Shown piece by piece: positions 10,846 through 31,716 of a DNA stretch of 64,000 nt. The DNA is taken from contig NZ_BCAG01000001.1 in assembly GCF_001293685.1 (NCBI RefSeq), positions 930,001 to 994,000 on the forward strand, written 5' to 3'. The position numbers and the translations under genes were made by a program. Position 1 is the first letter of the stretch; each line of letters opens with the position of its first letter. The stretch comes from Desulfatitalea tepidiphila (GTDB lineage: Bacteria > Desulfobacterota > Desulfobacteria > Desulfobacterales > Desulfosarcinaceae). The notes beneath the pieces are model-generated. The model ran no database searches, had not been told where the DNA came from, and was given only the letters and a program-made list of their open reading frames with translations.

Positions 10846-10938
10846 GGGTGATGTTGAATAGAAGTGCTTTTTTTCTGAAGGGTGTTCAGTTTCGGCAAAG
10901 AATTCACATCTGTCCATGCCGAAACACTCCCGGTGTAT

Positions 10939-14289: not shown

Positions 14290-14509
14290 AACGCCTTCGA
14301 GCCCGCCTTCTGATACCGCCTTGGTCTGTCATTTTTTTGCCGGCTCAACGGCAAACTTGACCCGCAACGACCGGCCATGCCGCATTGCCTGCTCTATATC
14401 TATCAGATATTCAATGATATTTTAAAAACCGGGATGCTGGAACAGGAATTGCTTGGTTCCTTTCGGGCGGCCGGTGCCGCCATGTATACGCGTCAGGGAG
14501 GGATCGCAA

Positions 14510-15344: not shown

Positions 15345-16490
15345 CTACGGCTCGACGTCCGGCCGGATCGGCAGTTTGATGGTAAAGCGGCTGCCGCGTC
15401 CGGGTGCCGACGAGACGCTGATCGTTCCGCCATGCTGCTCCACGATGTTTTTGGTGATGAACAACCCGAGACCGGTCCCCTTGCGGCCTTTTGAAGAGAA
15501 GAAGAGGGTGAAGAGCTTCTCCTGGGTCTGGGCATCCATCCCAACACCGCTGTCCGATACGGTGAAGATGATGTTCGCATCGTCGAGGGCCACACCGAAG
15601 GTGATGATGCACTCATGGGGCGTGGCGCTGCGTTGACAGGCGTCGATGGCATTTTCGAACAGGTTCATCAGGGCCGCATGAAGGTAACCGGGATCGATGG
15701 TGCAGGATGCCGGCAGGCCGCTGAACTTTCGTTCGAAGGCAATGCCGGTCTGATCCAGACGATTCTCCATGATGCGCGCCAACTCTTCGGCGAAATTGCT
15801 CAGGTCCACGCGTTCCCAGTTCAAGTCCCGTTTTTTGGCGTAGAAGAGGATATCCATCACCAGTTTGCGGATCCGTTCCACGAGAAGTTTGACGGTTTGC
15901 CAACCCTCCTCGAGGCATTGGGTGTCCTGGTTTTTCAGCCCCTTTTCCAGCAGGTACATGCCCCCGTCCAGTCCGGTCAGAAGACCCTTGATGCCGTGGG
16001 AGATGGAGCCGATCATCAGGCCCAAAGAAGAGAGATGGTCCTGCAGTTCGGTCTTTTCGCGGATGAGCGCTTCCAGATGGGTGGTGTAGTCCTGGAGTTT
16101 GCGGCGCATGATGATCCGTTCCTGGGTGCGCTGCAAGGCGATATCCAGGGCTTCGACGTTGATCGGCTTGGTGATGAAATCGGTGGCCTGGTGCTTGAGG
16201 CTCTTGACGGCCAGGTCCATGTCACCGTGACCTGTGATCATAATCACTTCGGTGTCCGGCGCGTCCCGCTTGATGCGCTGAAGCAATTCGATGCCGTCCA
16301 TTACCGGCATCTTGATATCGGTGATGACGATGGCCGGATGCTTTTCCTGAAAAACGGCCAGGGCCTGTTGCCCATTTTCTGCGGTAAAGACGACGTGGCC
16401 TTCGTCGGCCAGGGCGACTTCGAGAACATCGCGGATGTCCTGCTCGTCATCGACCAACAAGATATCCAGTTGTTCCGCATTCAGCGCCAT
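15345..16490 (-). CDS. Receiver-histidine kinase protein (N-terminal REC)
   Basis: A 381-residue soluble protein. REC spans residues 9-122, with acidic pair D14/D15, phospho-acceptor D58 (VITDIKMP), conserved Thr in MITGH and K108 in TKP. The dimerisation helix has H165 (SISHGIKG), and an ATPase domain follows (NLFENAID, DSGVGMD, GRKGTGLGLF). Such REC-first kinases take phosphate from, or are gated by, another kinase. It lies 50 bp behind the transmembrane kinase and is the last gene of the hdr array; I infer it is part of the same control circuit. Confidence 0.85.
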   Translation of the reverse strand: MALNAEQLDILLVDDEQDIRDVLEVALADEGHVVFTAENGQQALAVFQEKHPAIVITDIKMPVMDGIELLQRIKRDAPDTEVIMITGHGDMDLAVKSLKHQATDFITKPINVEALDIALQRTQERIIMRRKLQDYTTHLEALIREKTELQDHLSSLGLMIGSISHGIKGLLTGLDGGMYLLEKGLKNQDTQCLEEGWQTVKLLVERIRKLVMDILFYAKKRDLNWERVDLSNFAEELARIMENRLDQTGIAFERKFSGLPASCTIDPGYLHAALMNLFENAIDACQRSATPHECIITFGVALDDANIIFTVSDSGVGMDAQTQEKLFTLFFSSKGRKGTGLGLFITKNIVEQHGGTISVSSAPGRGSRFTIKLPIRPDVEP

Positions 16491-16539: not shown

Positions 16540-18840
16540 TTATGCTGTGCCTGCTTCCCTGCCTTCCCCTTCGCCGGCCAACGGGAAGGTCAGCTCGAAG
16601 CAGGTCCCGTTTTCTCTTCCGGGGAGACACCGGATCGTTCCCCGGCACTCTTGAACGATGCCGTAGCTGATGGAGAGCCCCAGGCCCGTGCCTTTCCCAA
16701 CCTCTTTGGTGGTAAAGAAAGGTTCGAAGATCTTCTCTTCCATTCCCTGGCTGATCCCCACACCGGTGTCACAGATCAGGCAGACCACCCGCTCCCCCTC
16801 CTGCCGGCTCGAGATGGTGATGTGGTCGCCTTCACCCGGTTTCCCCATGCTTTGCCATTTTTCTTCGATGGCATCGCGGGCATTGATCAGCAGATTGATA
16901 AACACCTGTTCGAGGCGTTGGGCATCGGCTTCGATCCGGGGCAGTGTCTCGGCCAGCGTCCAGTTGACGGCGATCCCGCGAACCTTGAGCTGCTGGCTGA
17001 AGATTTCAAATGCACTCTGCAGGACCGCGTTGACGCACACCTTTTGCAGGGCCATGTCCGACTTGCGCGCAAATTGACACATGTGATCGATGATGCGCGT
17101 GGCCCGATCCACGTTGTTGTCCACCTTGATCAACATGGTGGCCAGCGTCTGCGCATCGATCGGTTCGTCCCGCGCTATCTTGCGCATGAAAAAACTCGAA
17201 GTGGTCTTGATTACCGAAAGGGGTTGGTTGAGCTCGTGGGCCACGCCTGTGGCCATCTCGCCGAGGGTGGCCATCTTGCTGGTCTGGATCAATTGCTGCT
17301 CGGCTTCCAGACGCTGGGTGATGTCGTTGGTGGTGACCAGCAGTACCTTTTTTCCTGAATACTCCGACGGAGATACATGCATGTTGACATAAATCGTGCG
17401 TCCGCTTTTGTGGGTCTGCCGCAGTTGGTGCATGGCCAGCGCATCGGCCATGACCGATCCGAGGCGCAGGTGCTCCTGCTCGGCAAACAGGCGAAGAAAA
17501 GAGGTGCCGACAAGTTCGTCGACCGCATAGCCGTATACATCGGCGACATTCATGTTGCAGTCCAGAATCGTGAAGGTGTCGGGCTCGAGCACGAAAACCG
17601 GATTGGGAATGTTGCTGAAGATGGCGTGATACTTATTTTCAGACTTCTCCAGCTCGACCTCGAGTTGGCGTCGTTCCGTGATATCGTGGGAGATCTCCAT
17701 GGCAGCCACGATATTCCCTTCCGCGTCACGGATGGGAGAGGTGCGCACGATCCAATAGGATTGGGTGCCGTCCTTGTTGACCCCTTTTTCCTCGGTATAG
17801 TAAGATTTGCCGTCGAGGAAAGTTTTCTCCACCGGGCAGGGTTCACATTTGCATTCGCGGTTTTTATAGGCACGGTAGCATTTGTCTCCCGGCTGGGGGG
17901 CAAATCTTTTGGCAAATTCCCGGTTGTAGCGCAGCAGGTTGAAATCCCGGTCCTGCACGGTGATCAGGCAAGGCACCCGTTCGAACAACTCTTGGTACTC
18001 GTCGCGCTGCTTGTTCAGGGCGGCCTGCTGCTCGGCGATGGCCTCGCCCATGCGATCGATGGCGCCGGCCAAAAACCCCATTTCGTCTTTTCGCCGCATG
18101 CCGATGCGGGTCGTGTAGTCCCCCCTGGAGATGCGAAGTGTGCCGTCGACCATGCGCCGGATCGGACGGTTGACGAATCGCAGAAGAAACACGAGGATGA
18201 TAGCCGAGGTGACCAGGAAGATCGATGCGGTAAAGGTGATGATGTTGCGCTCGATTGCCGCGATCTCCTTGTCGGTGTCGGCCAGGGAAACGACCAGGTC
18301 CAGTGCGCCGAGGATTTTTTTATCTTCCGGGTGAAAGTGGCAGGCGCTGTTGTTGCACCCCGGTTCATTGGCGATGGGAGTGAGGATGCCAAGCATGCGG
18401 TGCCCTTCAGGGACGCGGTAAATGCGCATGCGCTGGTCCAAGTTCAGGTGGTCCAAGGGGGGATCGGTGCGGTGGCAGACATAGCAGGCTTCGTCCTCGA
18501 TATTGGTGACCTGCTCCACCTCTTCGTTGCGGTTCGAGAATTTGATCTGCCCCTGCTTGTTGTAGATGCGAATGTTCGCGATTCTTTTCTGGCGGCCCAC
18601 ATTGGTGATGATCTGGGTGATGTCGTCACGCGAATTGAGCATCATGGCGTAATGGGTGCCCAGGCGGATGGTGTTGGTCAGTCGATCCGTGCCGGCGACG
18701 ATATGCTCCATGAGCCGGCTTTTCTGATCTTCGATATGCAGGTAGGCCCATACCGAAAGCGAAGCCAGCAGCACGAGACCGACGGTGAGGATGAGTCGCG
18801 TGACCAGACTCTGATGGAGGGGGATGATGGAACGGCCCAT
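16540..18840 (-). CDS. Transmembrane PAS histidine kinase with heme-c-like periplasmic sensor
   Basis: A 766-residue protein. Transmembrane helix 1 is about residues 14-33, the periplasmic domain 34-199, helix 2 200-221, HAMP 222-275, PAS1 about 285-400, PAS2 405-520, HisKA with HELNQPLSV, and an HATPase domain. The periplasmic domain has CYVCH (119-123), an exact CxxCH heme-c motif, and C162-x4-C167-H168, a less common CX4CH variant, so it may bind one or two hemes and sense redox state or a ligand gas. PAS1 carries CYRAYKNRECKCEPCP, a Cys cluster seen in some anaerobe PAS domains. It starts 21 bp after hdrB and is predicted to be in the hdr operon. Confidence 0.85.
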   Translation of the reverse strand: MGRSIIPLHQSLVTRLILTVGLVLLASLSVWAYLHIEDQKSRLMEHIVAGTDRLTNTIRLGTHYAMMLNSRDDITQIITNVGRQKRIANIRIYNKQGQIKFSNRNEEVEQVTNIEDEACYVCHRTDPPLDHLNLDQRMRIYRVPEGHRMLGILTPIANEPGCNNSACHFHPEDKKILGALDLVVSLADTDKEIAAIERNIITFTASIFLVTSAIILVFLLRFVNRPIRRMVDGTLRISRGDYTTRIGMRRKDEMGFLAGAIDRMGEAIAEQQAALNKQRDEYQELFERVPCLITVQDRDFNLLRYNREFAKRFAPQPGDKCYRAYKNRECKCEPCPVEKTFLDGKSYYTEEKGVNKDGTQSYWIVRTSPIRDAEGNIVAAMEISHDITERRQLEVELEKSENKYHAIFSNIPNPVFVLEPDTFTILDCNMNVADVYGYAVDELVGTSFLRLFAEQEHLRLGSVMADALAMHQLRQTHKSGRTIYVNMHVSPSEYSGKKVLLVTTNDITQRLEAEQQLIQTSKMATLGEMATGVAHELNQPLSVIKTTSSFFMRKIARDEPIDAQTLATMLIKVDNNVDRATRIIDHMCQFARKSDMALQKVCVNAVLQSAFEIFSQQLKVRGIAVNWTLAETLPRIEADAQRLEQVFINLLINARDAIEEKWQSMGKPGEGDHITISSRQEGERVVCLICDTGVGISQGMEEKIFEPFFTTKEVGKGTGLGLSISYGIVQECRGTIRCLPGRENGTCFELTFPLAGEGEGREAGTA

Positions 18841-18861: not shown

Positions 18862-19851
18862 TCAGTGAGAATGTGCGCCCATGGTCCGCCGTTGAGATAT
18901 CGGTTCATCGTCGTTCAAGTTTTCGCATGGTGGTTGCCGGCCGGTCTCAGGACGTTGGACTGCCAACACCGGAAGATCTTCATTCATGGCGATTCGTTTT
19001 TTGAATGCCTCGGTGACGGCCAGGTTCAACGTCAATCCAAGTTCCTTTGGCGGGATACCAAGGGCGATACCCAGCAATTGGGGCAGATAGAGCACGGTTA
19101 TGGCTTCCCCCTGGCCCGTTCGCCTGGAAATCTGCTTTTGAAATCCCTCCAGATTGAGCTGGCACATGGGGCAGACCGTCGCAATGACATCGGCGTCCCG
19201 AGCCGCCGCCAGAATGGCGCCGCTCAGCTGCATCCCCTGATCCATGTGGGTCGTCATATGGGATGCGCCGCAGCAGCGCGGCCCCATGCTCCAGGAGAGC
19301 ACCTCGGCCCCCGTGGCGCGAATCAGACCCTCCATGCTGGTGGGCTTCTGGGGATCGTCGAACATCGGATAGGGCCGCAGGCACTGGCATCCGTAATAGG
19401 GGGCCACCACCAGATCTTTGAGCGGAAAAGCGATCTTGCCGGCGATGGCCGACGGTCCGAGATCGGTGGCCAGTACATCGAGCAGGTGGCGCACCCGGAT
19501 CTTTCCGCTGATGGAAAGTTCCTCCTCGGCCAGGACTTCGTTGGTATCCCGCATCGCCTGCGGATCTGCCCGCAGTGTTTCGGCGGTCTTTTTCAAGTTG
19601 AGATAGCAGGCGCTGCAAGGAACCAGAAGATCCGCCTTGATCTTGGCCCGTTCGGCCATTGCCAGGTTTCGGCCGGCCAGTGCCAGGGCCAGCAGCCGGC
19701 TGATCCCGGGTGCGGCCGATGCGCCGCAACAGGTCCAATCTTCCACCTCGGTCAGGCGGACCTCCAAGCGCTGGAGCAACGCGCGCGTGGCCTGGTCGTA
19801 TTCCTTTGCCGTGCCTTCCAAAGAGCAGCCCGGATAGTAAAGATATTGCAT
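18862..19851 (-). CDS. hdrB: Heterodisulfide reductase subunit B-like (two CCG domains)
   Basis: A 329-residue protein with two complete CCG Cys motifs. The first is YYPGC (residue 9), TCCGA (about 41) and CSACYLN (about 79). The second is YYGCQC (about 155), RCCGA (about 193) and CPMCQLN (about 229). In HdrB each motif holds a noncubane [4Fe-4S] cluster that cleaves disulfides. Both domains are intact, so catalysis is plausible; the disulfide partner in a non-methanogen is not known. The C-terminal 45 residues are polar and extend past the normal end. It is followed after 21 bp by the heme-motif histidine kinase. Confidence 0.88.
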   Translation of the reverse strand: MQYLYYPGCSLEGTAKEYDQATRALLQRLEVRLTEVEDWTCCGASAAPGISRLLALALAGRNLAMAERAKIKADLLVPCSACYLNLKKTAETLRADPQAMRDTNEVLAEEELSISGKIRVRHLLDVLATDLGPSAIAGKIAFPLKDLVVAPYYGCQCLRPYPMFDDPQKPTSMEGLIRATGAEVLSWSMGPRCCGASHMTTHMDQGMQLSGAILAAARDADVIATVCPMCQLNLEGFQKQISRRTGQGEAITVLYLPQLLGIALGIPPKELGLTLNLAVTEAFKKRIAMNEDLPVLAVQRPETGRQPPCENLNDDEPISQRRTMGAHSH

Positions 19852-19922: not shown

Positions 19923-20498
19923 TCAGGTCCCATCGCCCTCCATCTCCTCGACCCTGCGGAAGAGCGCCTCCAGCTTGGGGGCCCCACGGCGCAGCGTTGG
20001 CAACGACACCTTGGCTTTGCTTTGCAGCTTCCATCCCAGGGATGCGAACCGCAGCGGCAGGGTTGGGCGTCTCATATGCATGAAGTAGGCGGCCATCAAC
20101 GTCATCTCCTGCAGCCGGCCGTTACGGCGGACATTGTCGACGAAATCCCGGCAAAAATAGATGGTGTCCCCATATTGCCGTATATGCCCTCGAGCCGCTA
20201 TCTGCTTGAGTTCGGCCATGGCGTCGGACGGATTCAAACCGCGTGGGCAGCGCAGCGAGCAGTAATAGCATGCCGAACACAGGGTGAACGTGTGGCTTTG
20301 GAAGATTTTCTCCATGCGTCCCAGCTGAACGAGGCGCCACAGATGACGAGGGGTCAGGTCCATGGCCGAGGCGTTGGGGCAAGAAGCGCTGCAGGTTCCG
20401 CACTGAATACAGGCCCGCATCATCTCCTGAACGACCGAAAGGGGATTGGCTTCTCGTTCTTCGGTTGTAGAAGCATGGTGTGTCGCTGCGGTGCTCAT
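19923..20498 (-). CDS. hdrC: Heterodisulfide reductase subunit C-like ferredoxin
   Basis: A 191-residue protein with two [4Fe-4S] motifs: CIQCGTCSASCPN near residue 30 and CSACYYCSLRCPRG near residue 72. The C-terminal helical half includes the FVDNVRRNGRLQE and AAYFMHMRRPTLPL segments typical of HdrC. It passes electrons from HdrA to HdrB. I chose the ATG at 20498, seven bases after AAGGAGA on the minus strand; the upstream GTG at 20504 would be too close to that site. A GAAAG microrepeat fills the gap before it. Confidence 0.88.
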   Translation of the reverse strand: MSTAATHHASTTEEREANPLSVVQEMMRACIQCGTCSASCPNASAMDLTPRHLWRLVQLGRMEKIFQSHTFTLCSACYYCSLRCPRGLNPSDAMAELKQIAARGHIRQYGDTIYFCRDFVDNVRRNGRLQEMTLMAAYFMHMRRPTLPLRFASLGWKLQSKAKVSLPTLRRGAPKLEALFRRVEEMEGDGT

Positions 20499-20514
20499 AA
20501 GCACTCTCCTTTTG

Positions 20515-20546: not shown

Positions 20547-23500
20547 CTATTCTACCGCCGCATCGATCATCGCCAACATCTGGTGGGCACCATGGTGATT
20601 CAATATCGCCGCCCCATTGAGACACACGGCCGCGCAGGCACCGCAGCCTTGGCACATGGCCGGATCGACGACCAGGCGCCGCTGATCCAGATCGACGCTG
20701 CGTGCGCCGTAGGGGCAGGCATCGATGCAGCGCTGGCACAACACACACAGGCTGTGACGCACCGCGGCCGTGGGATGGCCTGCCGAGAGACTTTCATGGC
20801 ACAGGATGCGCAAGGCCCGCTGGGCCGCGGCCTGACCGGCCGCCGCCGCTTCGGTGATGGTCTGCGGCGCCAGCGCCAGGCCGCAGGCGAAAACGCCTTC
20901 GCGCAGTCCGTCCACGGGCCGCCATTTGCTGTCGGCCTCCTGGAAGAATCCTGCGGAATCCAGCGTGGCGCCGTAAAACGCCGCCAGTTTGGCCGGCAGG
21001 CGGGGCACTACGCCGGTGGCAAGCACCAGCAGGTTGGCTTCGATCTTCAGGTCCACCTCGGCGATGGGATCGTGCACCGAAAGGGTTACGATGCCATCCG
21101 GCGATGTTTCGACGCCGGGAAGTTGCTGGGGACGGTAAGGGATAAAGACCACGCCGGCCCGACGCGCCTCGGTGTAGTAGCTTTCGCTGAAGCCGGTCAT
21201 CATGACATCGCGGTAGAGGATGTAAATTTGAACGCGGGAATTTTTCTCCTTGAGATAGAGCGCATGCTTGATGGCCGTGGGGCAGCAGACCCGGCTGCAA
21301 TAGTCGCGCGATGGTTCGCGGCTGCCCACGCATTGAATCATGGCCACGACATCCCATGCGGCCGCATCCGCTTCGCCCGAACCGATGTTGCGCTCCAGGG
21401 CCTGCTGGGTGACGATGGCCGGATGGGTGCCATAGCCGTAAGCCGTGGCTTCCGCCTCCAAACCGCCGGTGGCCAGGATGGTGACCCCATGGCGCAAGGT
21501 TTCGGTCCGGCCCTGGGCATTTTGCAGCGTGGTGCGGAAATCTCCCACCCGGCCCACGGCGTTGATCACTTCGTGTTCCAAGTGCAGGGTGATCTTGGGG
21601 TGCTGGATCACGCGGTCGTCGAGTTGATCGAGCAACGGCTTCACGGCGTGACCTTCGAGGGTGTGGTGCAACCAGGCGAGATTTCCCCCCAGTCGGTTCT
21701 CTTTTTCGACCAGGTCGACTCCGTAGCCCATGTCCGCTATGGCCAGCGCGGCATGCATGCCGGCCGTGCCACCGCCGATCACCAGCGCCTTTCGTTGCAC
21801 CTGTTCCCGGTCGGGGGCCGTAGGTTCGGTGTGTTTGAGAAACGCCAGACCCATTTGCAACGACGCCGAAAGGACGCGTTCGCCCAAAGCACTCCGCAGC
21901 GACCGCTCAGTCGTGTCGGCCTGTGGCTCCGTCGGTTCGATTTTCATATCGACGATGGTCATCAGGTTTTCCGGCAGACCGGTGCGCTGGGACAGGGTGC
22001 GACGGTGTGTGCTGTGCCGCAGTGGATGACAGGCGGCCACGAGCAGACGGTTGGGGGCCAGATCCTTGATGGCCGCCTCGAGCGGCCCCCAGCCGTCCGC
22101 ACCGCACAACTGATCCACGAATAACACCTGAACCACGGCCGGGTCCCGAGTCAGCTCGGAAATCAGCTTCTCGGTGTTCCGGGCCTCTGCCAGGCAACCA
22201 TGGCAAGTACAAATGGCTGCCAGGATTCTCGGTGGCGCATCGGGGGCGACCCCCTTTGCGGCCGGCCCTTCGGCCAGGGCCAGTTGGCTGCCGCTGCGGC
22301 GCAGCGTGCGTCCTGCCTCAAGGGCCGCGGCCGATGCCTGGATCAAGGCGGCGTTGATTTCCACCGGTTCGGTGCAGGCCCCGGAAAGGAAAATACCCTC
22401 GGCGCTGGAGCATGCCGCTGCGAACGGCTGGGGTTGGAAAAATCCCCAGGCGTTGCGTTCGGCCTGGGTCAATTCGGCCAGGGCTTCGGTTTCGGGAGAC
22501 GGCCGAAAACCGGCGGCCAGGACGACCAGGTCCACCTCCGTCTCGTGCATCCGTCCGTCCAGGCCGGCATAGCGCAACAGCGGATCGCCGCTCTCGGGCG
22601 AGGTGGTCACCGAGTGAACCCTGGCCCGCACCAGGTGGACGCCGCGCTCCTCCTCGGCCTGCCGGCGGTAGGGTTCGAAGCTTTTTCCGAAGGTGCGCAT
22701 GTCGGTGTAAAAAATCGTCGTTTCGACCGCGCCGCTGCTTTTTGTCTTGGCCAGGACCGCTTCCTTGAGGGAGATCATGCAGCAGATGCGCGAGCAGAAG
22801 TCGGCCGAGATTTGGTAATCTCGCGAGCCCACACACTGCAGCCAGGCGATCCGCTGCAGCGGTTTGCCGTCAGCCGGCCGCACCAGACGGCCCTGGCTGG
22901 GACCGCAGCCGCTCAACACGCGTTCGAAAGCCAGACTCGTGATCACGTGGGGATTCGTGCCATACCCGTATGGGTTGACCCCTTCGCTGGGGTCGAAGAG
23001 CGTCATGCCGCCGGCCAGGATCACGGCGCCGGCCGCCACTTGACGCTCCTGCACCGAGACGGTCGCCTGAAATACCCGGTTGACCATGGCCAGCATGGAC
23101 TGGGGGTCGAAGGGTTTGATGAGATAGTCGAGGGCGCCGGATTTCATCGCCTCCACGGCCGTATCCACGGTGGCATAGGCGGTCATCATCACGGCCACCC
23201 GATCGGGGTGATCCGCCTTGGCCCGTTTGAGCAGGTCGACGCCGTCCATGCCGGGCATCTTGACATCGATGAGCAGCAGTTTGACATCCGATTGCTCGAG
23301 CAGCGTCAGGGCCTCGGCGCCGGATTCGGCCGTCTGCACATTCATGAAGCCTTCGGCGAGCAGCCACTCCTTGAGTGAATCGCGCACCGACAGCTCGTCA
23401 TCCACCACCAGGATCGAAAATTCTTTGCGCCGGTCGAAGGCAAGGTCGATGGCGCCCGTGGGGCAGATCGGTACACATGCGCCGCAGCGGGTGCAGGCCG

Positions 23501-23987
23501 CCGCATCGATGACATAGGCGCCGACGACGGCATGGGGCACGACCCGGTGTATGGCCTTGCTGCGGCTCAACCCGCTGTTGAAATCGTCGGGCATGTCCAC
23601 CGGGCAGACCGTCTCACAGGCGCCGCAGCCGATGCACAATTGCGGGTCCACGCCCTGGAGCGTCTGTTTGAGCCGCACGAGGAACCGGCCGGGACCGCCT
23701 TCCACGTTCGACAACTCGGTGGCCGGCAGGAAATCGATGCGTTCATGGAAAAAGCCTTTGCGCAGGCAGGTTGCTTCGGCCGAATCGCGTTCGAGCAGCG
23801 GCAGCATCTTGCACATGCCGCAGCCATCGGTTGGGAATTGGGCGTCCAGGCGGCTCAGCAACCCGCCGGGGTGGGCCGCCCGGTCGATGAGCAGCACATC
23901 GGATCCCGTTTCGGCCAGGTCGAGCGCCGAACGGATGCCGGCGATACCGGCGCCGATAATAACGGCGTGATAGTTTTCTCGCAGCAT
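20547..23987 (-). CDS. hdrA: Double HdrA with inserted response-regulator receiver domain
   Basis: A 1146-residue flavo-iron-sulfur protein made of two HdrA units. Unit 1 has FAD-binding GAGIAG (12-17), CGMC (56-59), ferredoxin motifs from C118 and C165, then a complete receiver domain at 190-307 with D196/D197, phospho-acceptor D241 (LLIDVKMPGMDG), T269 and K291. The flavin fold then resumes (AVILAGG, 321-327) to about 570. Unit 2 begins with a degenerate HdrA N-terminal domain (CTCHGC, 593-598), a second FAD site (GGGTAG, about 738-743) and two C-terminal [4Fe-4S] motifs (CVLCQRCIDACP, CQGCGACAAVC). HdrA splits electron pairs at its flavin; phosphorylation of D241 could gate this. The ATG overlaps the stop of the FrhB-like gene (TGATG), after AAGGAGG. 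Confidence 0.88.
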   Translation of the reverse strand: MLRENYHAVIIGAGIAGIRSALDLAETGSDVLLIDRAAHPGGLLSRLDAQFPTDGCGMCKMLPLLERDSAEATCLRKGFFHERIDFLPATELSNVEGGPGRFLVRLKQTLQGVDPQLCIGCGACETVCPVDMPDDFNSGLSRSKAIHRVVPHAVVGAYVIDAAACTRCGACVPICPTGAIDLAFDRRKEFSILVVDDELSVRDSLKEWLLAEGFMNVQTAESGAEALTLLEQSDVKLLLIDVKMPGMDGVDLLKRAKADHPDRVAVMMTAYATVDTAVEAMKSGALDYLIKPFDPQSMLAMVNRVFQATVSVQERQVAAGAVILAGGMTLFDPSEGVNPYGYGTNPHVITSLAFERVLSGCGPSQGRLVRPADGKPLQRIAWLQCVGSRDYQISADFCSRICCMISLKEAVLAKTKSSGAVETTIFYTDMRTFGKSFEPYRRQAEEERGVHLVRARVHSVTTSPESGDPLLRYAGLDGRMHETEVDLVVLAAGFRPSPETEALAELTQAERNAWGFFQPQPFAAACSSAEGIFLSGACTEPVEINAALIQASAAALEAGRTLRRSGSQLALAEGPAAKGVAPDAPPRILAAICTCHGCLAEARNTEKLISELTRDPAVVQVLFVDQLCGADGWGPLEAAIKDLAPNRLLVAACHPLRHSTHRRTLSQRTGLPENLMTIVDMKIEPTEPQADTTERSLRSALGERVLSASLQMGLAFLKHTEPTAPDREQVQRKALVIGGGTAGMHAALAIADMGYGVDLVEKENRLGGNLAWLHHTLEGHAVKPLLDQLDDRVIQHPKITLHLEHEVINAVGRVGDFRTTLQNAQGRTETLRHGVTILATGGLEAEATAYGYGTHPAIVTQQALERNIGSGEADAAAWDVVAMIQCVGSREPSRDYCSRVCCPTAIKHALYLKEKNSRVQIYILYRDVMMTGFSESYYTEARRAGVVFIPYRPQQLPGVETSPDGIVTLSVHDPIAEVDLKIEANLLVLATGVVPRLPAKLAAFYGATLDSAGFFQEADSKWRPVDGLREGVFACGLALAPQTITEAAAAGQAAAQRALRILCHESLSAGHPTAAVRHSLCVLCQRCIDACPYGARSVDLDQRRLVVDPAMCQGCGACAAVCLNGAAILNHHGAHQMLAMIDAAVE

Positions 23988-25126
23988 CAGGCCTCCTTAC
24001 GCCAATGCAATCCTGCCGTATCCGCGAACTCGTGTTCACGAAATTCGCTCAACGGGGGTCGTTCCGCCGCATCCCGTCCGGCCTGGTAGTCGAAGGCGGC
24101 CTGGGTGCGATGGGCCACGGTGCGGAACAACGACATGACGTCGATGTCGTTGGGGCAGGCATTGCTGCACTGGCCGCATCCCACGCAGGCCGTGCTCATA
24201 TGGGCCAGGCGGGTCAGATGGTAGAAGATGGTGTCGGTGGGCATTTTGATCATGCCCTTGCGCCGCGTCCAGGAGAGATATTGCAGCGGGTCGTGGTCGA
24301 AGAGATTGGTCTCGAAGACGCACTGTCGGCAGTAACAGACCGGGCAGGCCGTGCGGCAGTTGTAGCAATTGACGCAATGGGCGAAATAGTGATCCAGTTT
24401 TTCCAGGCTGTCGGTGGCCGCGGCGGTCTCTGCAAACATGCTGTCCCGGAACCGGGTGCGTTCGGCCACCACCGTTTCCACGGCAGCCGCCCGTTCGTCC
24501 GGCAATGGGGCCGCCTTCAGTCCCAGCCGGTCGAGGATCTCCCGGCCGGCATCGGTCTGGGCGTCCACCATCACCTCCCGGCCGGTGTCAACGCCCCACA
24601 GGCAGACGGCCAGGTCGGCGCCCGTGGGCATGGGATGTTCGCAGGCGCGGCAGGCCTTTGACAGCGAGCCTTCGTCGACTGATGGGCGTTTGATGTAGCC
24701 TTGATCCGCTCCTGATTCGTCTCCCCCGTGCGTAAGGGCATCGAAGACCTTGTTGGGATACGCCCCCGGACAATCGCTGCCGATGATGATCACCTGCTCC
24801 CGCAATCCCTGTTTGAGTTTGACCAATTCGATAAACGCCCGGATTTCGCAGGGGCGCAGGACGGCGGCCACCCGATTGGGGGTCGCGGTGCGCGTCAGGC
24901 GGCACACCTGCTTGGCGGCATTGAGCGCAAACGCCGGCGAGAGGGGATCGGAGTTATCGAGCTGATCCGGATCATGGATCAAAAGGGGCATCACGGCACG
25001 ACTGCCCGGAAGCCGACCGGGCACCATGACAGCGTCGATTTCCTCCAGGGCCAGGATGCGGCCGAGTAACGTCCGGATCGCGTCCGCGACATCTTCGTTT
25101 TTCACTTCCATCGTAACGGTCTGCAT
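23987..25126 (-). CDS. FrhB/FdhB-like flavin iron-sulfur subunit
   Basis: A 379-residue protein. The N-terminal two thirds resemble the F420-hydrogenase/formate-dehydrogenase beta family (VAAVLRPCEIRAFIEL, then VIIIGSDCPGAYP, and CRACEHP). A Cys-rich block NCYNCRTACPVCYC and CVGCGQCSNACPNDIDV near residue 318 bind two Fe-S clusters. FrhB-type subunits bind FAD and pass electrons between F420, formate or NAD(P)H dehydrogenases and ferredoxin-type partners. I start at the ATG at 25126, with GAAGG upstream, not at 25198. The stop overlaps the hdrA start, so the two are translationally coupled. Which donor it uses is not visible. Confidence 0.8.
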   Translation of the reverse strand: MQTVTMEVKNEDVADAIRTLLGRILALEEIDAVMVPGRLPGSRAVMPLLIHDPDQLDNSDPLSPAFALNAAKQVCRLTRTATPNRVAAVLRPCEIRAFIELVKLKQGLREQVIIIGSDCPGAYPNKVFDALTHGGDESGADQGYIKRPSVDEGSLSKACRACEHPMPTGADLAVCLWGVDTGREVMVDAQTDAGREILDRLGLKAAPLPDERAAAVETVVAERTRFRDSMFAETAAATDSLEKLDHYFAHCVNCYNCRTACPVCYCRQCVFETNLFDHDPLQYLSWTRRKGMIKMPTDTIFYHLTRLAHMSTACVGCGQCSNACPNDIDVMSLFRTVAHRTQAAFDYQAGRDAAERPPLSEFREHEFADTAGLHWRKEA

Positions 25127-25160
25127 AGGCTGCCTTCGCAATGCTTCGGGTTTCGAGTTG

Positions 25161-25583
25161 TTAGAGCACCATTTGACTTCTGGAGGCCACCGGCCCAAGT
25201 TCCCTCGTGCGCTCGGTCAGTTCTCGCATGGTCTGGGTGAACTGGATGCCGTCGCTGGCACCGATCCAGGTGAGCTGCAGCCGGTCGGCTTCAAAGCCGA
25301 ACTGGGGCAGGATCTCCTTTAGCAACCGGATGCGGCGCCGGGCCTTGTAGTTGCCGTTGATATAGTGGCAATCGCCCGGGTGGCAGCCGCTGACCAGCAC
25401 CGCGTCGGCCCCCTCCAGAAAGGCCTTGATGATGTACTGGGGGTCCACCATGCCCGTGCACATGACGCGGATCAGCCGCACGTTCGGTGGATAGGTGAGC
25501 CGCGAGGTGCCGGCGAGATCAGCGGCCGTGTAAGTGCACCAGTTGCAGACAAAGGCGATGATCAATGGCTCGAAAGATTGCAT
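25161..25583 (-). CDS. mvhD: MvhD-like [2Fe-2S] electron-transfer subunit
   Basis: A 140-residue protein, full length for MvhD. IIAFVCNWCTYTAADLAG, the VMCTGMVDP segment and GCHPGDCHY give the Cys ligands of the [2Fe-2S] cluster. MvhD normally connects a hydrogenase or dehydrogenase to HdrA. No hydrogenase genes are in the window, so here it most likely joins the GltD-containing HdrA or the FrhB-like subunit to the rest of the complex. It follows HdrA-GltD by 184 bp and precedes the FrhB-like gene by 34 bp. Confidence 0.9.
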   Translation of the reverse strand: MQSFEPLIIAFVCNWCTYTAADLAGTSRLTYPPNVRLIRVMCTGMVDPQYIIKAFLEGADAVLVSGCHPGDCHYINGNYKARRRIRLLKEILPQFGFEADRLQLTWIGASDGIQFTQTMRELTERTRELGPVASRSQMVL

Positions 25584-25766: not shown

Positions 25767-28700
25767 CTAAGCGGCGGCCGAGGTCGACGTGTCCGAACCC
25801 TCGATCTTCTCCAGATGTTCCAGAACATCGATCGAATCGAAAATGCCGTCGATTTCAGAGAAGATCTGCTGACTCTTGAAGTGCCGGCTGCTGGCGGCGC
25901 CGCTGGGACAGAAACCCGAACAGCTGCCGCACCCTTTGCATATCAAAGGGTTGACCTCGCTGACCTGTTTGAGTTCGTTGAACGAGATGGCGCTGTATGG
26001 ACACAGGCCGATGCAGATCTGGCATCCGGCGCAGATATCCGGATCGATGTAGGAGATGGTGGGGGCGATCTCCACCCGGCCCCGGGCCGCCAGGGCCAGG
26101 GCCTTGGCCGCCGCGCCCGACGCGTGGGACACGGCATCCGGGATGTCCATGGGCTTCTGGCAGCAGCCGGCCAGAAAGAGGCCGTCGGTGGCCGTGTTGA
26201 GCGGCCCCAGCTTGGGATGGGCCTCCAGGAAGAAGCCGTCGGCCCCCTGGTTGACGCCGAAGACCCGGCCGACCTGCAGCGCATCGCTGCGGGCCTCCAT
26301 GGCCGTGCAGAGCACCACCATGTCCACGGGAACACGCAGGTTTTCGCCCAGTAATGTGTCTTCGGCCAGCAGGATCAATTTGCCCTGTTCCGCTTCGGAT
26401 GTCGCTTCGTCGGTGATTTCGGCCACCTTGCCGCGGATGAAGGTGGTGCCTTCCTCCTGGCAGCGCCGGTAGAACTCTTCGTATCCTTCGCCGAAGCAGC
26501 GCATGTCGATGTAAAAATCATACACATCGGTATCATGGCCGACCTTCTCCTTGATCAGGTGGGTGTACTTGAGGGCATACATGCAGCAGACCCGCGAGCA
26601 GTATTCATGATAGTTGACATCGCGGCTGCCGATGCAGTGCAGCAGGGCCACGCTCCGCGGCGGCCGTTCGAAACGACCGCTGTCGCCGCGCATGAGAATC
26701 CGGCCGCCAGTTGGGCCGGTGGCATTGCTCAGTCGCTCGAATTCCAGGGCGGTGAAAACATTCTGGAAACGACCGTAGCCATACTGGGTCATGGGGGTGG
26801 GATCGAGCGTGTCATAACCGGTGGCCAGGATGATACTGCCCACCTGGAGATGGAGATCGGTCGGTTGCATCAGGTGGTCGATGGCATGGGCCTCGCAGGC
26901 GGACACGCACTGCATGCATTCGCAGCAGACGCCGCAGTTGAGACAGCGTTCGGCTTCGGCGCGTGCCTCGGCCTCGGAGAGGGGCTTTTCGACTTCCGCA
27001 AAGGGTTCGGCTCCGGCGATGAACGGTACAAAGGGCGGTTCGACACGCTTTTCAGGGTGGACGTCATCAGGAATCGGGGCCCAGTCGGCCGTCTCCGCAT
27101 CGGGCCGGGGCGGCCTTTCCGGGAGGTCGGTCAAGGGTTCACCGCGCAAGAACAGGTCCATGGCCGCCACCGTCCGATGGGCCGCCCCAACGGCTTCGAT
27201 GGCCGTGGCCGGGCCGCTCACCATGTCGCCGGCGGCAAATACATACGGCAGGCTGGACTGCCCGGTGACCGGGTCGGCCAGGAGCAGGCCGCGGCGGTCC
27301 CATTGCAGTTCCGGCACCGACGCTGCCCAGGCGGTATCGGTGAGTTGCCCGATGGCCGGAATGATCGTGCCACACGGCACGCGGAACTCGGCGCCCTCGA
27401 TGGGTTCCGGGCGGCGTCGGCCGCTGCGGTCGGGCGGTCCCAATCGGTTGCGCACGCAGGTCAGTGCGACCACCCGTCCGTCTTCCCTTTCGACTCGCAG
27501 GGGGGTGGCCAGAAATTCGAACCGGATACCCTCGATCTTGGCCTGCTCGATCTCCTCGCGATAAGCCGGCATCTCCTGCTCGCTGCGGCGATAGACCACG
27601 GTCACCGGCGCATCGCTCAGTCGGCGGGCGGTGCGGGCCGCATCGATGGCCACATTGCCGCCGCCGACCACCGCCACCGGGCCGACCGGCGCGATGGGCG
27701 TTCCCATATTCACCGCGCGCAGGAAACGAACGCCGTCGACGACGCCGTCACCGTCCGATTCGCCCTCGATGTTCAGCTGCATGGCCTTGTGGGCCCCGAT
27801 CCCGAGGAAGATGGCCGCAAACCCCTGTTCCTTCAGGTTGGACAAAGTAAAATCACGCCCCAGGCGACGACCGGTATGCACTTCGACGCCCAATCTCAGG
27901 ATGTGATCGATCTCCCGGTCCAGCACCTCGGGCGGCAGCCGGTAGTCGGGAATGCCGGCCCGCAGCATGCCGCCCAACCGGTCCAGCGCTTCATAAAGAA
28001 CGATCTGGAATCCTTTCAGACGCATGTAGTAGGCGACCGTGAGGCCGGCCGGACCGCTGCCGATCACGGCGATTTTTTCAGGCCGTTCGTCGATGGGCGG
28101 CACGGCCCGCCCCACCAGCGACACCTGGTCGGCCGCAAACCGCTTCAATGCCCGGATCGCCACCGGTGCTTCCACCTGGGCGCGGCGGCACTGGGATTCG
28201 CACGGGTGGGGGCAGATACGGCCCAGGGTGCCGGGCAGGGGCAGCTGTTCCATGATCAGGGATACGGCCTGTTCGTATTTGCCCTGGGCGATGAGCTGGA
28301 CATACCCCTGCACATTGACCCCGGCCGGACAGGTGCGCGTACAGGGAGCGGTGTCGCGCTTTTCGATCTGAAAGGCGATGGGCACCGCCTGGGGAAAAGA
28401 TCGGCCGATGGCCCGGCGCTCGCCCAGGCCCTGGTCCCAGTCATTGGGAATCGACACTGGACACACCTTGGCGCACTCGCCGCAGCCGGTGCAGACCCCC
28501 TCCTTGACATAACGCGCTTGCTGATGGACCGTGACGCTGAAGTTGCCCACGAAACCCGATACATCGGTTACCTGACTGAGGGTGTGCAGCCGGATATTGG
28601 GATGCTGCCCCACGTCGACCATCTTTGGCGTGCCGATGCACGCCGCGCAGTCCAGGGTGGGGAAGGTCTTGTCGAACTGCAGCATGTGGCCGCCGATGGT

Positions 28701-29216
28701 GGATCCGGCCTCGATCAGATGAACCGTGTGGCCGGCGTCGGCCATGTCCAGGGCCGCCTGCATGCCGGCGATGCCGGCACCGACCACCATCATCACCGGG
28801 TGCACGTCGGCCCATCGGCTCTGCAGGGATTCATGGCCCCGCACGCGGTGCACAGCGGCCGCCACCAGGGTCTTGGCCTTGGCCGTGGCGAGGATGGCAT
28901 CCTCGGTGACCCAGGAGACCTGCTCGCGAACCGAGGCCATCTGGAAATAATAGGGATTCAAGCCCGAGCGCCGGCAAACGTTCATAAAGGTGGTGCCGTG
29001 CAGGCGAGGCGAACAGGAGGCCACCACCACGCGGTCGAGATGATACTCGGCGATGTCGGCCTCGATCATGGCCTGTCCGGGATCGGAACACATAAACCGG
29101 TAGTCCCGGGCCGCGACCACTCCCTCGAGCTGTTTGGCAAATTCGGCTACGGCCGCCACATCCACCCGGTGGGAGATGTTGATGCCGCAATGGCAGACAT
29201 ATACACCGATTCGCAT
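25767..29216 (-). CDS. hdrA: HdrA with inserted GltD/NfnL-like NAD(P)H module
   Basis: A 1149-residue protein. Residues 1-132 are the HdrA N-terminal domain (VYVCHCGINIS). FAD-binding GAGIAG is at 146-151, CAAC at 190-193, and a ferredoxin motif CTGCGECAKVCP at 242-253. Residues 288-760 are a GltD/NfnL module: Cys-rich start (CTRTCPAGVN, CPHPCESQC), a first Rossmann site GSGPAG (386-391), a second GGGNVA (518-523), and AAGD (661-664). The HdrA flavin fold resumes at about 790 and ends in two [4Fe-4S] motifs (CAGCQICIGLCP, CKGCGSCSGFCP). The GltD module binds FAD and NAD(P)H, so this subunit probably connects NAD(P)H to bifurcation. The ATG at 29216 lies three bases after the receiver gene's stop; GAAAGGG precedes it. 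Confidence 0.88.
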   Translation of the reverse strand: MRIGVYVCHCGINISHRVDVAAVAEFAKQLEGVVAARDYRFMCSDPGQAMIEADIAEYHLDRVVVASCSPRLHGTTFMNVCRRSGLNPYYFQMASVREQVSWVTEDAILATAKAKTLVAAAVHRVRGHESLQSRWADVHPVMMVVGAGIAGMQAALDMADAGHTVHLIEAGSTIGGHMLQFDKTFPTLDCAACIGTPKMVDVGQHPNIRLHTLSQVTDVSGFVGNFSVTVHQQARYVKEGVCTGCGECAKVCPVSIPNDWDQGLGERRAIGRSFPQAVPIAFQIEKRDTAPCTRTCPAGVNVQGYVQLIAQGKYEQAVSLIMEQLPLPGTLGRICPHPCESQCRRAQVEAPVAIRALKRFAADQVSLVGRAVPPIDERPEKIAVIGSGPAGLTVAYYMRLKGFQIVLYEALDRLGGMLRAGIPDYRLPPEVLDREIDHILRLGVEVHTGRRLGRDFTLSNLKEQGFAAIFLGIGAHKAMQLNIEGESDGDGVVDGVRFLRAVNMGTPIAPVGPVAVVGGGNVAIDAARTARRLSDAPVTVVYRRSEQEMPAYREEIEQAKIEGIRFEFLATPLRVEREDGRVVALTCVRNRLGPPDRSGRRRPEPIEGAEFRVPCGTIIPAIGQLTDTAWAASVPELQWDRRGLLLADPVTGQSSLPYVFAAGDMVSGPATAIEAVGAAHRTVAAMDLFLRGEPLTDLPERPPRPDAETADWAPIPDDVHPEKRVEPPFVPFIAGAEPFAEVEKPLSEAEARAEAERCLNCGVCCECMQCVSACEAHAIDHLMQPTDLHLQVGSIILATGYDTLDPTPMTQYGYGRFQNVFTALEFERLSNATGPTGGRILMRGDSGRFERPPRSVALLHCIGSRDVNYHEYCSRVCCMYALKYTHLIKEKVGHDTDVYDFYIDMRCFGEGYEEFYRRCQEEGTTFIRGKVAEITDEATSEAEQGKLILLAEDTLLGENLRVPVDMVVLCTAMEARSDALQVGRVFGVNQGADGFFLEAHPKLGPLNTATDGLFLAGCCQKPMDIPDAVSHASGAAAKALALAARGRVEIAPTISYIDPDICAGCQICIGLCPYSAISFNELKQVSEVNPLICKGCGSCSGFCPSGAASSRHFKSQQIFSEIDGIFDSIDVLEHLEKIEGSDTSTSAAA

Positions 29217-29218
29217 GG

Positions 29219-29653
29219 TCAGACCCTTTCCGTGTTGCGGCTGTTTTTGGACGTGCCTGTCAGGCGCCGCACCACTGCTATGAAATCCTCGGCTTCGGGG
29301 GGATTGGGCAAGAATGCCTCGGGGGACGGCAGCCGCCCGATGGTAGGAGCATAGGGTTGTGTCTGATAGGGCCCCCCTGTGCGCCGTGTCAGGTTGGAGA
29401 GCATGACCACCGGCAGCCGGCAAAGCGCCGGGTCTGCTTTGAGCCGGCCATATATCGATTGAATCTGCTCCGCCGGCAGCATGGCGTCCAGGACGATGAG
29501 GGAGAGATTGCGCGTGCGTGCCTTTGACAACGCCTCGCTGGAATTGTCGGCGGTCAGTGGATCGAACCCGTGGGCCTTGAGGAGATTGGTAATATAGATC
29601 AGACGATCGGGCTCGTTCTCGATGACGAGAATCTTGAGTTGGGTTGCCGGCAC
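29219..29653 (-). CDS. Stand-alone receiver-domain protein
   Basis: A 144-residue receiver-like protein: LKILVIENEPDRLIYITNLL, DPLTADNSSEAL, and LSLIVLDAMLPAEQIQ (phospho-acceptor Asp in LDAML). The first acidic pair is E-N-E rather than DD, and the Thr position reads MLSNLT. The C-terminal tail contains a short extension (PSPEAFLPNPPEAEDFIAVV). I start at the GTG at 29653, which has AAGGAG five bases upstream on the minus strand; the longer frame to 29767 runs past the sigma54 promoter. It is the first gene behind that promoter and has no DNA-binding domain. Confidence 0.75.
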   Translation of the reverse strand: MPATQLKILVIENEPDRLIYITNLLKAHGFDPLTADNSSEALSKARTRNLSLIVLDAMLPAEQIQSIYGRLKADPALCRLPVVMLSNLTRRTGGPYQTQPYAPTIGRLPSPEAFLPNPPEAEDFIAVVRRLTGTSKNSRNTERV

Positions 29654-29725
29654 GATCTCTCCTTTTCGACCTCTATGGTTAAAAAGGGTGGTGCGTTCGG
29701 CCAATCCGATTGAAGGGAGGTATAC

Positions 29726-29740
29726 GCACAGGATGTGCCA
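29726..29740 (-). promoter_or_regulatory. Sigma54 (-24/-12) promoter of the hdr array
   Basis: Minus-strand sequence TGGCACATCCTGTGC compares with the consensus TGGCAC-N5-TTGC. It has the invariant GG and GC ten bases apart, with one mismatch (first T of TTGC is G). The predicted transcription start near 29714 leaves about 60 bases before the GTG at 29653. A sigma54-dependent activator gene sits directly upstream. Confidence 0.65.
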
Positions 29741-29903
29741 TGACCGTGTGAAGGCATATAACGGCATGAAATTATACGGCTATGCCGAATTTTACGCGGG
29801 AGGTAAAGGGCGATTCTGGAACGGGGATATGTTGCAATAATGGAACAAAAGCGTTGAGTACAACAATAATCTACTAAATTTAAACATTAATATCATAATA
29901 GAA

Positions 29904-29988: not shown

Positions 29989-31716
29989 TTACGCCAACCC
30001 GTAGCGCTTGATCTTGCGCCAGAGGGTGGTGCGGTCCATGCCCAGGCTCCTGGCGGTTCGGCCCCGGTGGCCGTAATATTTGGCCAGAGTGGCGGCGATC
30101 TGTCCGGCCTCGTCCGCAGGCGGCGCCTTCTGCCCGCTCGGTGGGCATACAGGCGCCGGAAAAGGAGCGAGAAGGTCTTCGGGCAGATGGCATTTACGGA
30201 TAGGGCCCGTGCCGCACAGGATCAGAGCATGTTCGATGATATTCTCCAGTTCGCGCACGTTGCCGGGATACTTGTAATTGAGCAGGATCGCCATGGCTTG
30301 GTCGGATATGGCGGGCGGCGGCGCCCCCTGGGCCGCGCAGAGCTTGCGCATTACGTGGCGGATCAGCAACGGCAGGTCGTCGCGCCGCTCCTCCAGGGCA
30401 GGCAGCTCGATGCGCAGGACTTTCAAGCGGTAAAACAGGTCTTCCCGAAACAGGCCGTCCTTGACCAGTTGCTCCAGCCGGCGGTTGGTGGCCGAGATGA
30501 TGCGCACATTCACCCGCTGGGTGCGCCGGCTGCCCAAGGGGTAGAACTCCTGTTCTTCGAGCACCCGCAGCAGCTTGGCCTGCAGGCTCAGCGGCAGGTC
30601 GCCGATTTCGTCCAGGAAAATGGTGCCGCCGTCCGCCTCCTGGAACCGGCCCGGTTTGTCGCGGTCCGCACCGGTGAAGGCCCCTTTGACATACCCGAAG
30701 ATCTCCGATTCGATCAGGCTGTCGGGGATCGCCGCACAGTTGACCTTGACCCAGGGCTTGGATGCCCGGGGACCGGCGTCATGGAGAATCTTGGCCAGTA
30801 TATCCTTGCCCGTGCCGGTGGCGCCCTGGATCAGGACCGTGGCGTCGCTGGCCGCCACGGCCGGGATCATGGCAAAGATCTTCTGCATGGGCGGGCTCTT
30901 GCCGATCATGTCGCGGCAAGTGTAGCGGCCCCGGATGGCCTGGTTGAGCTGGTGTACCAGTGTCATGTCCTGGAAGGTGACCAGACCGCCCACCACGGCT
31001 TCGCGCTCGTCACGCAGGGCCGCGTAGTTGGCCCGGATGGGAACGATGCCCCCTTCGCTGTCCCGCAGGCGCCCCTCCAATCCCCGGTAGACCGTGTTTT
31101 TCCGGATGGCCGTCTCTATGGGCGAGGGCGCATCGGGTCCCGGTTCGACAAAGATGTCGGTGCTGGGCCGGCCGAGCAGGGTGGTGCGTTCGTAACCGGA
31201 AATACGTTCGGCCGCGGTGTTGAAGAAGGTGATCAGTCCGCCCCGGTTGGTCGTAAAAACACCCACGTCGAGGCTGTCGAGGATGTTTTTCAGGCTGCGT
31301 TCCTCGTAGCGCAGCCGCTCGATGAGATCGCTGATGGGCGAATGGTCCTGGAGGATGGTCAGGCAGCCGATCACCGTGTGGTCTGCGGCGTAAATCGGGA
31401 TGGCCATGCGGCTGATCAGGTGCTGTCGCATCTCCTCGTCGGCGACGTTCACCGTCGACTTCCGGGATTGGCCGTCCCCGCCGCCCACGATGCAGTTGAC
31501 CATGCAGGGCACGCCGGTGAAAACTTCGCGACAATCCTTGCGCAACACTTCGTTGGCGCGCAGCCCGATCAGGGCTTGGGCGCATTGGTTGATGGCCGTG
31601 ATTTCATGGTCGAGGTTGACGGTGAAGGCGCCGATGTTCAGTTCGTCCAGAACGGCCAGCCATTGATCACAGGCCGGATTGGAGGCCAGATTGGAATGTT
31701 TGCGAATCGCGGTCAT
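29989..31716 (-). CDS. Sigma54-dependent PAS activator
   Basis: A 575-residue protein. PAS1 is about residues 15-125 with C62, C71 and C75; PAS2 about 140-255; the AAA+ domain about 268-490, with Walker A GATGTGKD (298-305), GAFTGA (345-350) that contacts sigma54, Walker B FLDEIGD and the arginine-finger region. The C-terminal Fis-type HTH is near 535-575 (GHRGRTARSLGMDRTTLWRKIK). It has no receiver domain, so control is by the PAS domains, and the Cys residues suggest redox sensing. The ATG overlaps the stop of the upstream kinase by 4 bp (31713-31716). It faces the hdr promoter and is its most likely activator. Confidence 0.88.
   Translation of the reverse strand: MTAIRKHSNLASNPACDQWLAVLDELNIGAFTVNLDHEITAINQCAQALIGLRANEVLRKDCREVFTGVPCMVNCIVGGGDGQSRKSTVNVADEEMRQHLISRMAIPIYAADHTVIGCLTILQDHSPISDLIERLRYEERSLKNILDSLDVGVFTTNRGGLITFFNTAAERISGYERTTLLGRPSTDIFVEPGPDAPSPIETAIRKNTVYRGLEGRLRDSEGGIVPIRANYAALRDEREAVVGGLVTFQDMTLVHQLNQAIRGRYTCRDMIGKSPPMQKIFAMIPAVAASDATVLIQGATGTGKDILAKILHDAGPRASKPWVKVNCAAIPDSLIESEIFGYVKGAFTGADRDKPGRFQEADGGTIFLDEIGDLPLSLQAKLLRVLEEQEFYPLGSRRTQRVNVRIISATNRRLEQLVKDGLFREDLFYRLKVLRIELPALEERRDDLPLLIRHVMRKLCAAQGAPPPAISDQAMAILLNYKYPGNVRELENIIEHALILCGTGPIRKCHLPEDLLAPFPAPVCPPSGQKAPPADEAGQIAATLAKYYGHRGRTARSLGMDRTTLWRKIKRYGLA

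Follow-up and report, generated by a model that had tools for sequence, protein, structure and literature searches.

We analysed a 64,000-nucleotide stretch of the Desulfatitalea tepidiphila genome (contig NZ_BCAG01000001.1, positions 930,001 to 994,000; hereafter the window), whose minus strand carries at 20547..23987 a gene for a tandem heterodisulfide reductase subunit A (HdrA) with a response-regulator receiver domain inserted into it (HdrA-REC). The open reading frame starts with ATG, encodes 1146 amino acids without internal stops, and is supported by its translation, Pfam matches and orthologs; a first-pass annotation of this DNA had given the same coordinates, to which we add the strand. 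All of the parts listed here are encoded on the minus strand. The protein begins with the N-terminal part of a thioredoxin reductase-like flavin half (residues 1-100, 23688..23987), whose C56/C59 pair (CGMC) is retained in 95 of 97 aligned sequences, the remaining two being gapped there. An inserted ferredoxin follows (residues 101-186, 23430..23687) with two [4Fe-4S] motifs, C118/121/124/128 (95 of 97 sequences, two gapped) and C165/168/171/175 (96 of 97, one gapped), and then the receiver, delimited by Pfam, conservation and the fold of the predicted model (residues 191-307, 23067..23417), and the continuation of the first flavin half (residues 312-565, 22293..23054; C385, C398, C402, C403 and K408). 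An HdrA N-terminal-type domain (residues 586-725, 21813..22232; C593, C595, C628 and C653) precedes a second thioredoxin reductase-like half without inserted ferredoxin (residues 731-1065, 20793..21797; C886, C897, C901, C902 and K907), and the protein ends in a C-terminal ferredoxin with two [4Fe-4S] motifs, recognised by Pfam and alignment (residues 1074-1146, 20550..20768).

Pfam Pyr_redox_2 and related matches identify a thioredoxin reductase-like flavin adenine dinucleotide domain with its Rossmann glycine motif, beside whose flavin stand extra cysteines, spaced C-x12-C-x3-CC in half 1 and C-x10-C-x3-CC in half 2; C385/398/402/403 and C886/897/901/902 are invariant in 97 of 97 sequences, and K408 and K907 are likewise invariant among the aligned sequences. 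We take the flavin-adjacent cysteines of both halves to belong to a cluster, and K408, by alignment offsets, to correspond to about residue 409-410 of the 5odc chain, presumably a lysine near the flavin. HdrA-REC scores below the NCBIfam HdrA cut-offs (619.9 versus 1100 bits for NF040770, 497.2 versus 1400 for NF041778 and 441.8 versus 1300 for NF041891) and is thus HdrA-like, outside the coenzyme B-coenzyme M heterodisulfide reductase equivalog. Aligned with the 8rvu chain (Methanothermobacter marburgensis HdrA), residues 42-181 match chain residues 188-317 and residues 313-505 match 323-513, and 131 residues (182-312) stand where ordinary HdrA has five (318-322). Residues 586-774 align with chain residues 12-194, the N-terminal part of solved HdrA. 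This alignment and the domain order identify HdrA-REC as a tandem HdrA, with half 1 holding the inserted ferredoxin and half 2 the N-terminal-type domain and the C-terminal ferredoxin. In ordinary HdrA, an inserted ferredoxin domain already lies within the thioredoxin-reductase domain (PMC9012536), as the order of matches to solved HdrA also shows. The receiver does lie between the ferredoxin motifs and the rest of the first flavin fold, as first described, but it is not what interrupts that fold: because the inserted ferredoxin already interrupts ordinary HdrA, the receiver makes no new break and extends the exit of the ferredoxin insertion by ~126 residues.

The receiver is complete. Pfam Response_reg (PF00072) matches residues 192-302 over nearly the full profile (positions 1-110 of 111, 98.5 bits, E 3.4e-28), and all five catalytic residues named by the first-pass annotation are present in the translation, at D196 (codon 23400-23402), D197 (23397-23399), D241 (23265-23267), T269 (23181-23183) and K291 (23115-23117). 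It therefore retains the residues whose loss defines pseudo-receivers. A whole-protein structure prediction (56 sequences; predicted local distance difference test score, pLDDT, 88.4; predicted template modelling score 0.87) was of good quality, giving a receiver that folds as a regular (beta-alpha)5 (block pLDDT 79-94) and whose alpha-5, at 295-310, leads almost directly into the returning flavin-fold strand, predicted to begin at 312. The nearest solved structures found with Foldseek are HdrA chains (best E 1.1e-44). The model fits 7bkd at 3.7 Å, 8rvy (titled state 1) at 4.0 Å, the shorter chains of 8rvu and 8rwn at 4.3-4.4 Å, 8rvu chain A (titled state 2) at 7.7 Å and 5odc at 9.8 Å, values that come from a single-chain prediction and have little bearing on function. 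In methanogens, the states are described as differing in where a mobile arm stands, an arm proposed to gate electron transfer; the HdrA inserted ferredoxin is the docking site of MvhB, whose cluster comes to 9.8 Å from HA6 (PMC12350162). A receiver at the ferredoxin exit would be well placed to act on this docking.

We then assessed the conservation of the receiver in an alignment of 120 sequences, of which 91 have D196, D197, D241, T269 and K291. The remaining 29 comprise 26 sequences of one family, here f50, and three without a visible receiver; thus every receiver-bearing sequence outside f50 is catalytically intact. Once six contigs that had been retrieved in duplicate and a near-copy of the window were taken out, a non-duplicate intact group of 84 remained, all of which (84/84) carry the five residues together with Y288, which we take to be the counterpart of the aromatic switch residue in CheY-like receivers. 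The five residues are also invariant in 12 of 12 sequences from the window's own family, which were collected independently of any receiver motif, and equally intact in the ten phylum-sample genomes outside f50 and a second family, f31, that have the receiver in the stretch retrieved (loci L107-L115 and L122). Mean pairwise identity within the intact group, from 1500 sampled pairs, was 0.68 for the receiver, compared to 0.73 for the first flavin part, 0.60 for the inserted ferredoxin, 0.56 for the second flavin part and 0.37 for the N-terminal-type domain. The receiver is therefore conserved about as strongly as the enzyme core.

A search for further fusions of this kind, which the first-pass annotation had called for, found HdrA-REC in many independent assemblies, including complete chromosomes. 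The ortholog of Desulfatitalea sp. UBA4791 is a full-length near-copy (96% identity). Sixteen of 30 genomes in the window's family have a match (E <= 1e-200), with 14 crossing the receiver and two beginning inside it, at residues 237 and 261; 73 of 194 genomes in the order sample have an ortholog (E <= 1e-185), of which, by inspection, 71 run through the receiver without a break and two begin at residues 235 and 321; and 18 of 395 genomes in the phylum sample match, 15 across the receiver. These counts each include the window's own genome, their E-value limits exclude distant relatives, and an unbroken match across the receiver is by itself no test of the catalytic residues. We also scanned a named collection, taking the best 80 of 430 loci chosen with two peptide patterns; because one of these lies in the receiver and contains T269, the scan leans to intact fusions and gives no rate. 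Among these best 80 are Desulfosarcina alkanivorans PL12 and D. widdelii PP31, each represented by its chromosome, and Desulfospira joergensenii, represented by a scaffold; their fusions retain all five catalytic residues (L090, L092 and L094).

The genes flanking HdrA-REC on the same strand encode the parts of a probable Hdr-type complex. Upstream lie an FrhB/FdhB-like Fe-S protein (23987..25198, Pfam), MvhD of the FlpD family (25161..25583, Pfam E 4e-54) and an HdrL-like protein (25767..29423, with a true start that, by eye, is likely near 29216), in which HdrA carries a module in its ferredoxin region that binds nicotinamide adenine dinucleotide or its phosphate (NAD(P)) and resembles the glutamate synthase small subunit and NfnB. 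Downstream are an hdrC-like gene (19923..20504; Fer4 dicluster, with TIGR03290 at E 9e-19, below its cut-off) and an hdrB-like gene with two CCG stretches (18862..19851; Pfam, with TIGR03288 below its cut-off). This neighbourhood recurs at assessable intact-group loci, with the FdhB-like gene at 72 of 73, MvhD at 67 of 68, HdrL at 64 of 65, HdrC at 61 of 78 and HdrB at 59 of 74.

Both kinases that the first-pass annotation had put forward as candidates for phosphorylating the receiver are present downstream on the minus strand. A membrane histidine kinase (16540..18840; outer domain, HAMP, PAS, PAS, HisKA, HATPase) starts 21 nucleotides past hdrB, and is followed by a REC-HATPase kinase (15345..16490). 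By eye, the predicted outer domain of the membrane kinase holds one canonical CxxCH (CYVCH) and one CX4CH rather than two canonical heme motifs. Counting the heme-motif kinase as present when a match of at least 150 bits to that of the window lay on the same strand within 8.5 kilobases downstream, we found it, among the 84 intact-group loci, at 47 of 63 assessable loci; 36 of those 47 matches begin at the N-terminal, heme-motif part. The REC-kinase was found at 41 of 58 assessable loci. Kinase homologs occur somewhere in the genome of all 24 searched carriers outside f50 and f31 (E <= 1e-120). The receiver of HdrA-REC in the window shares 43-49% identity with three receivers of its own genome that lie outside the cluster, and a lower 36-39% with the receivers of the REC-kinases next to it, and so sequence does not name the kinase of the HdrA receiver. 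Upstream of HdrL, also on the minus strand, lie a small divergent receiver, RECx (29219..29767; E 7e-7, just under the Pfam cut-off), a sigma-54 activator with PAS domains and no receiver (29989..31716, Pfam) and a REC-PAS-HisKA-HATPase kinase (31713..33281). RECx looks degenerate by eye, with E-N at the acid pair and no clear Lys, and its homologs lie upstream of HdrL in many loci.

Family f50 provides a contrasting state of the receiver. An ortholog is present in 23 of 79 sampled f50 genomes, and all 23 have lost D197 (one has Glu there) and T269, while D241 is retained in 16, K291 in 14 and Y288 in 4; each thus falls in the pseudo-receiver class. Receiver identity in f50 is 0.39, compared to 0.52-0.77 for other parts of the protein. 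The genes for the FdhB-like protein, MvhD, HdrL, HdrC and HdrB are each retained at 22 of 22 loci, and the 8.5 kilobases downstream hold no homolog of the heme-motif kinase on the same strand at any of 19 assessable loci; the REC-kinase is absent at all three assessable loci. In a tree built without the receiver columns, f50 is a single clade (support 100/100), and this tree does not settle whether f50 branches inside the intact group. In a receiver tree, f50 receivers lie among the fused ones with weak support at the inner forks. The natural reading of these sequences is that the f50 state represents a loss of catalysis.

In f31, two of three sampled genomes carry a receiver-less ortholog, with four residues where the receiver sits, preceded by HdrL, MvhD and FdhB-like genes; at one of these loci (L120), the genes that follow are HdrC-like, HdrB-like, two stand-alone receivers, a kinase and a sigma-54 activator. 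In trees that omit the receiver columns and take three receiver-less paralogs from the window's own genome as root, f31 falls below the receiver-bearing sequences (Shimodaira-Hasegawa-like approximate likelihood ratio test (SH-aLRT) 96 in one tree; bootstrap 87 and SH-aLRT 98 in another), which makes one receiver insertion the simplest history. The receiver was therefore probably inserted once, a bootstrap of 87 not being decisive. Fused receivers group with NtrC-type receivers in the receiver tree. We considered whether the two stand-alone receivers after the HdrB-like gene (L120:7187-8038; L121:6895-7750) are the fused receiver set free, and found no support for this: they group with RECx (support 97, on a very long RECx branch) and are 24-39% identical to three fused query receivers.

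Taken together, these observations lead us to propose that receiver phosphorylation controls the HdrA enzyme, to which we assign a somewhat better than even chance. HdrA-REC would provide the flavin subunit for what is probably a soluble electron-transfer complex of the Hdr type, made up of HdrL, MvhD, FdhB-like protein, HdrA, HdrC and HdrB. It probably gained its NtrC-type receiver in a single insertion, at the point where the inserted ferredoxin gives way to the flavin fold. The operon kinases, among them the membrane kinase with heme-binding motifs in its predicted outer domain, would phosphorylate D241; the T269/Y288 switch and alpha-5 would pass the signal into the flavin-fold strand; and the inserted ferredoxin would shift relative to the flavin or to a docking ferredoxin, opening or closing the low-potential branch. 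Ferredoxin-linked bifurcation or confurcation would thereby come under fast post-translational control, set by redox conditions outside the membrane. Retention of the key residues across many related species suggests that sulfate reducers may steer strongly reducing electrons by quick, direct control and not solely via genes. A broader version, in which bifurcation and confurcation in sulfate reducers are phospho-gated, an outside-redox kinase sets the receiver via c-type heme, the ferredoxin port responds within seconds, and one lineage fixed the port in one state through loss of the kinase link together with that of receiver chemistry, we hold tentatively, as somewhat more apt to be wrong than right.

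Several observations weigh against phosphorylation control. The heme-motif kinase is absent as counted here from 16 of 63 assessable intact loci, whose receivers are still intact; in five of these the kinase is either beyond that distance downstream or encoded on the opposite strand (L035, L041, L078, L094 and L101), one has an upstream homolog (L052), and ten have no kinase homolog within the stretch retrieved, several of them having another REC-kinase. The conservation itself draws 80 of its 120 sequences from the best-80-of-430 scan with the T269 pattern, and is biased towards intact receivers. Because f50 is a single branch, the correlation between receiver and kinase amounts to one evolutionary event, and HdrL also lacks the NAD(P) module at 22 of 22 f50 loci, indicating more than one change on that branch. 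Many f50 loci also have divergently transcribed kinase, receiver and sigma-54 genes on their upstream side, and kinase homologs occur elsewhere in the genome in 14 of 22 f50 carriers searched (E <= 1e-120). Finally, the receiver of one f50 protein (L125) is predicted to fold whole, with beta/alpha elements at 191-310 and block pLDDT 86-92, a model that hints at a phosphate-independent role.

This last point bears on the possibility that the receiver is mainly structural or serves docking, positioning the inserted ferredoxin or binding a partner such as another subunit, with phosphorylation minor or absent. Minor or absent phosphorylation must be the case in most of f50, where the whole domain is kept in 23 of 23 orthologs despite a broken catalytic set, and the receiver-derived "wings" on basic amino acid decarboxylases offer a precedent (PMC8503589). 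However, phosphorylation and switch residues that are invariant in 84 of 84 sequences outside f50 would be needless in a purely structural domain, and we consider this explanation rather unlikely. It is also conceivable that the signal runs outward, with HdrA reporting its redox state or occupancy to kinases through the receiver and so serving the operon's regulators as a sensor or phosphate sink. The operon does hold two further REC-kinases, a small receiver and the sigma-54 activator, homologs of which surround the cluster in many of the best 80 named loci; however, that activator has PAS domains and no receiver, and sigma-54-like promoter matches in the window are at chance (7 versus 6.1 expected), which together leave outward signalling improbable. 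The orthologs in many independent assemblies, with their conserved catalytic residues, rule out for practical purposes an error of assembly or annotation, and equally a pseudogene in decay.

HdrA-REC compares with known systems as follows. Methanogen HdrA (in Mvh-Hdr, Elp-Hdr and Fdh-Hdr-Fmd; 5odc, 8rvu and 7bkb) shares the thioredoxin reductase-like flavin fold, the inserted ferredoxin, the N-terminal-type and C-terminal ferredoxin domains, the extra flavin-side cysteines and HdrB/HdrC/MvhD-like partner genes, whereas HdrA-REC has two flavin halves per chain, an inserted receiver and scores under the NCBIfam cut-offs. Tandem HdrA proteins of anaerobic methanotrophic (ANME) archaea and Moorella share the two halves and the complementary loss of N-terminal domain and partner cysteine, but are without the receiver; "receiver" and "response regulator" each occur 0 times in the main text that describes them (PMC9012536). 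The same paper describes ANME-1 HdrA9-11, which carry an NfnB-like insert in the ferredoxin domain, as does the window's HdrL (place judged by eye), and HdrL of Desulfobacterium autotrophicum is likewise an HdrA with an added pyridine-nucleotide module (PMC2702500). These modules are redox-active, in contrast to the signalling domain of HdrA-REC, which sits just past the second cluster motif. In the neighbouring HdrL (25767-29423), the NAD(P)-binding module lies, by eye, in the same ferredoxin region, before the second cluster motif. Together with the HdrA9-11 inserts, this marks the ferredoxin as a site where HdrA proteins acquire new modules.

The first-pass annotation described direct phospho-control of such a subunit as a new mode of regulation, which overstates the case, since response regulators with enzymatic output, in which a receiver is joined to a metabolic enzyme, are a recognised class, with thioredoxin reductase among the receiver outputs predicted in metagenomic archaea (PMC5847659). 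Unlike these, HdrA-REC has its receiver within the chain of an Fe-S flavoprotein that belongs to an Hdr-type cluster, and the novelty therefore lies in the enzyme and the internal site. The decarboxylase wings are N-terminal receiver-derived domains and as such are nearer to f50 than to the window (PMC8503589). A receiver inside HdrA was not met in an aimed full-text search of open-licence papers, supplementary files excluded; metabolic enzymes bearing receivers and foreign modules within this HdrA domain both have precedents, and their combination was not seen among the literature searched. HdrA4 of D. autotrophicum HRM2 is a possible ortholog, judged by description alone: its locus VIII has tandem hdrL/hdrA, fdhB, hdrB and hdrC, with mvhD following hdrL, in what looks like the gene set of the window (PMC2702500). 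"Receiver" occurs 0 times in the main text of that genome paper, which compares Hdr proteins by Pfam scans in supplementary Fig. S3, so that a receiver-HdrA architecture may have been drawn before without comment.

To our knowledge, the regulation of Hdr complexes is largely uncharted, and cells living near the thermodynamic limit must decide the destination of strongly reducing electrons. Orthologs with an intact, a dead or no receiver in similar operons form a natural comparison, and these three receiver states make post-translational control of electron bifurcation directly testable.

Four of the best 80 named loci (L043, L070, L071 and L091) encode USP-REC-USP proteins beyond hdrB. The one in L043 (near 15583, minus strand) has a receiver about 53% identical to fused HdrA receivers, and those in the others (L070:14983-16305, L071:14959-16296, L091:14795-16306) have receivers 56-66% identical to three fused receivers; judged by this identity, it is the same receiver type grafted onto a second, unrelated protein. 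A search of 32 genomes (E <= 1e-60) matched only the query's own genome and none of the 31 others, the window's included, and we rejected USP-REC-USP as part of the HdrA-REC system. A MetF-like gene with a C-terminal DUF5981 domain lies at 12745-14289 on the opposite strand. MetFV-HdrABC-MvhD is mentioned for Moorella (PMC9012536), and we rejected a link between the MetF-like gene and the cluster because such a gene is found at 1 of 80, 0 of 16 and 0 of 19 related loci. Elsewhere in the window's genome (C1:345001-360000, L169, at 5627-14673) lies a second heme-motif kinase and REC-kinase pair. It stands upstream of what we take, by eye, to be an Rrf2-like gene and an Hmc-like cytochrome complex, which makes kinase plus REC-kinase a recurring pair at electron-transfer operons in this genome.

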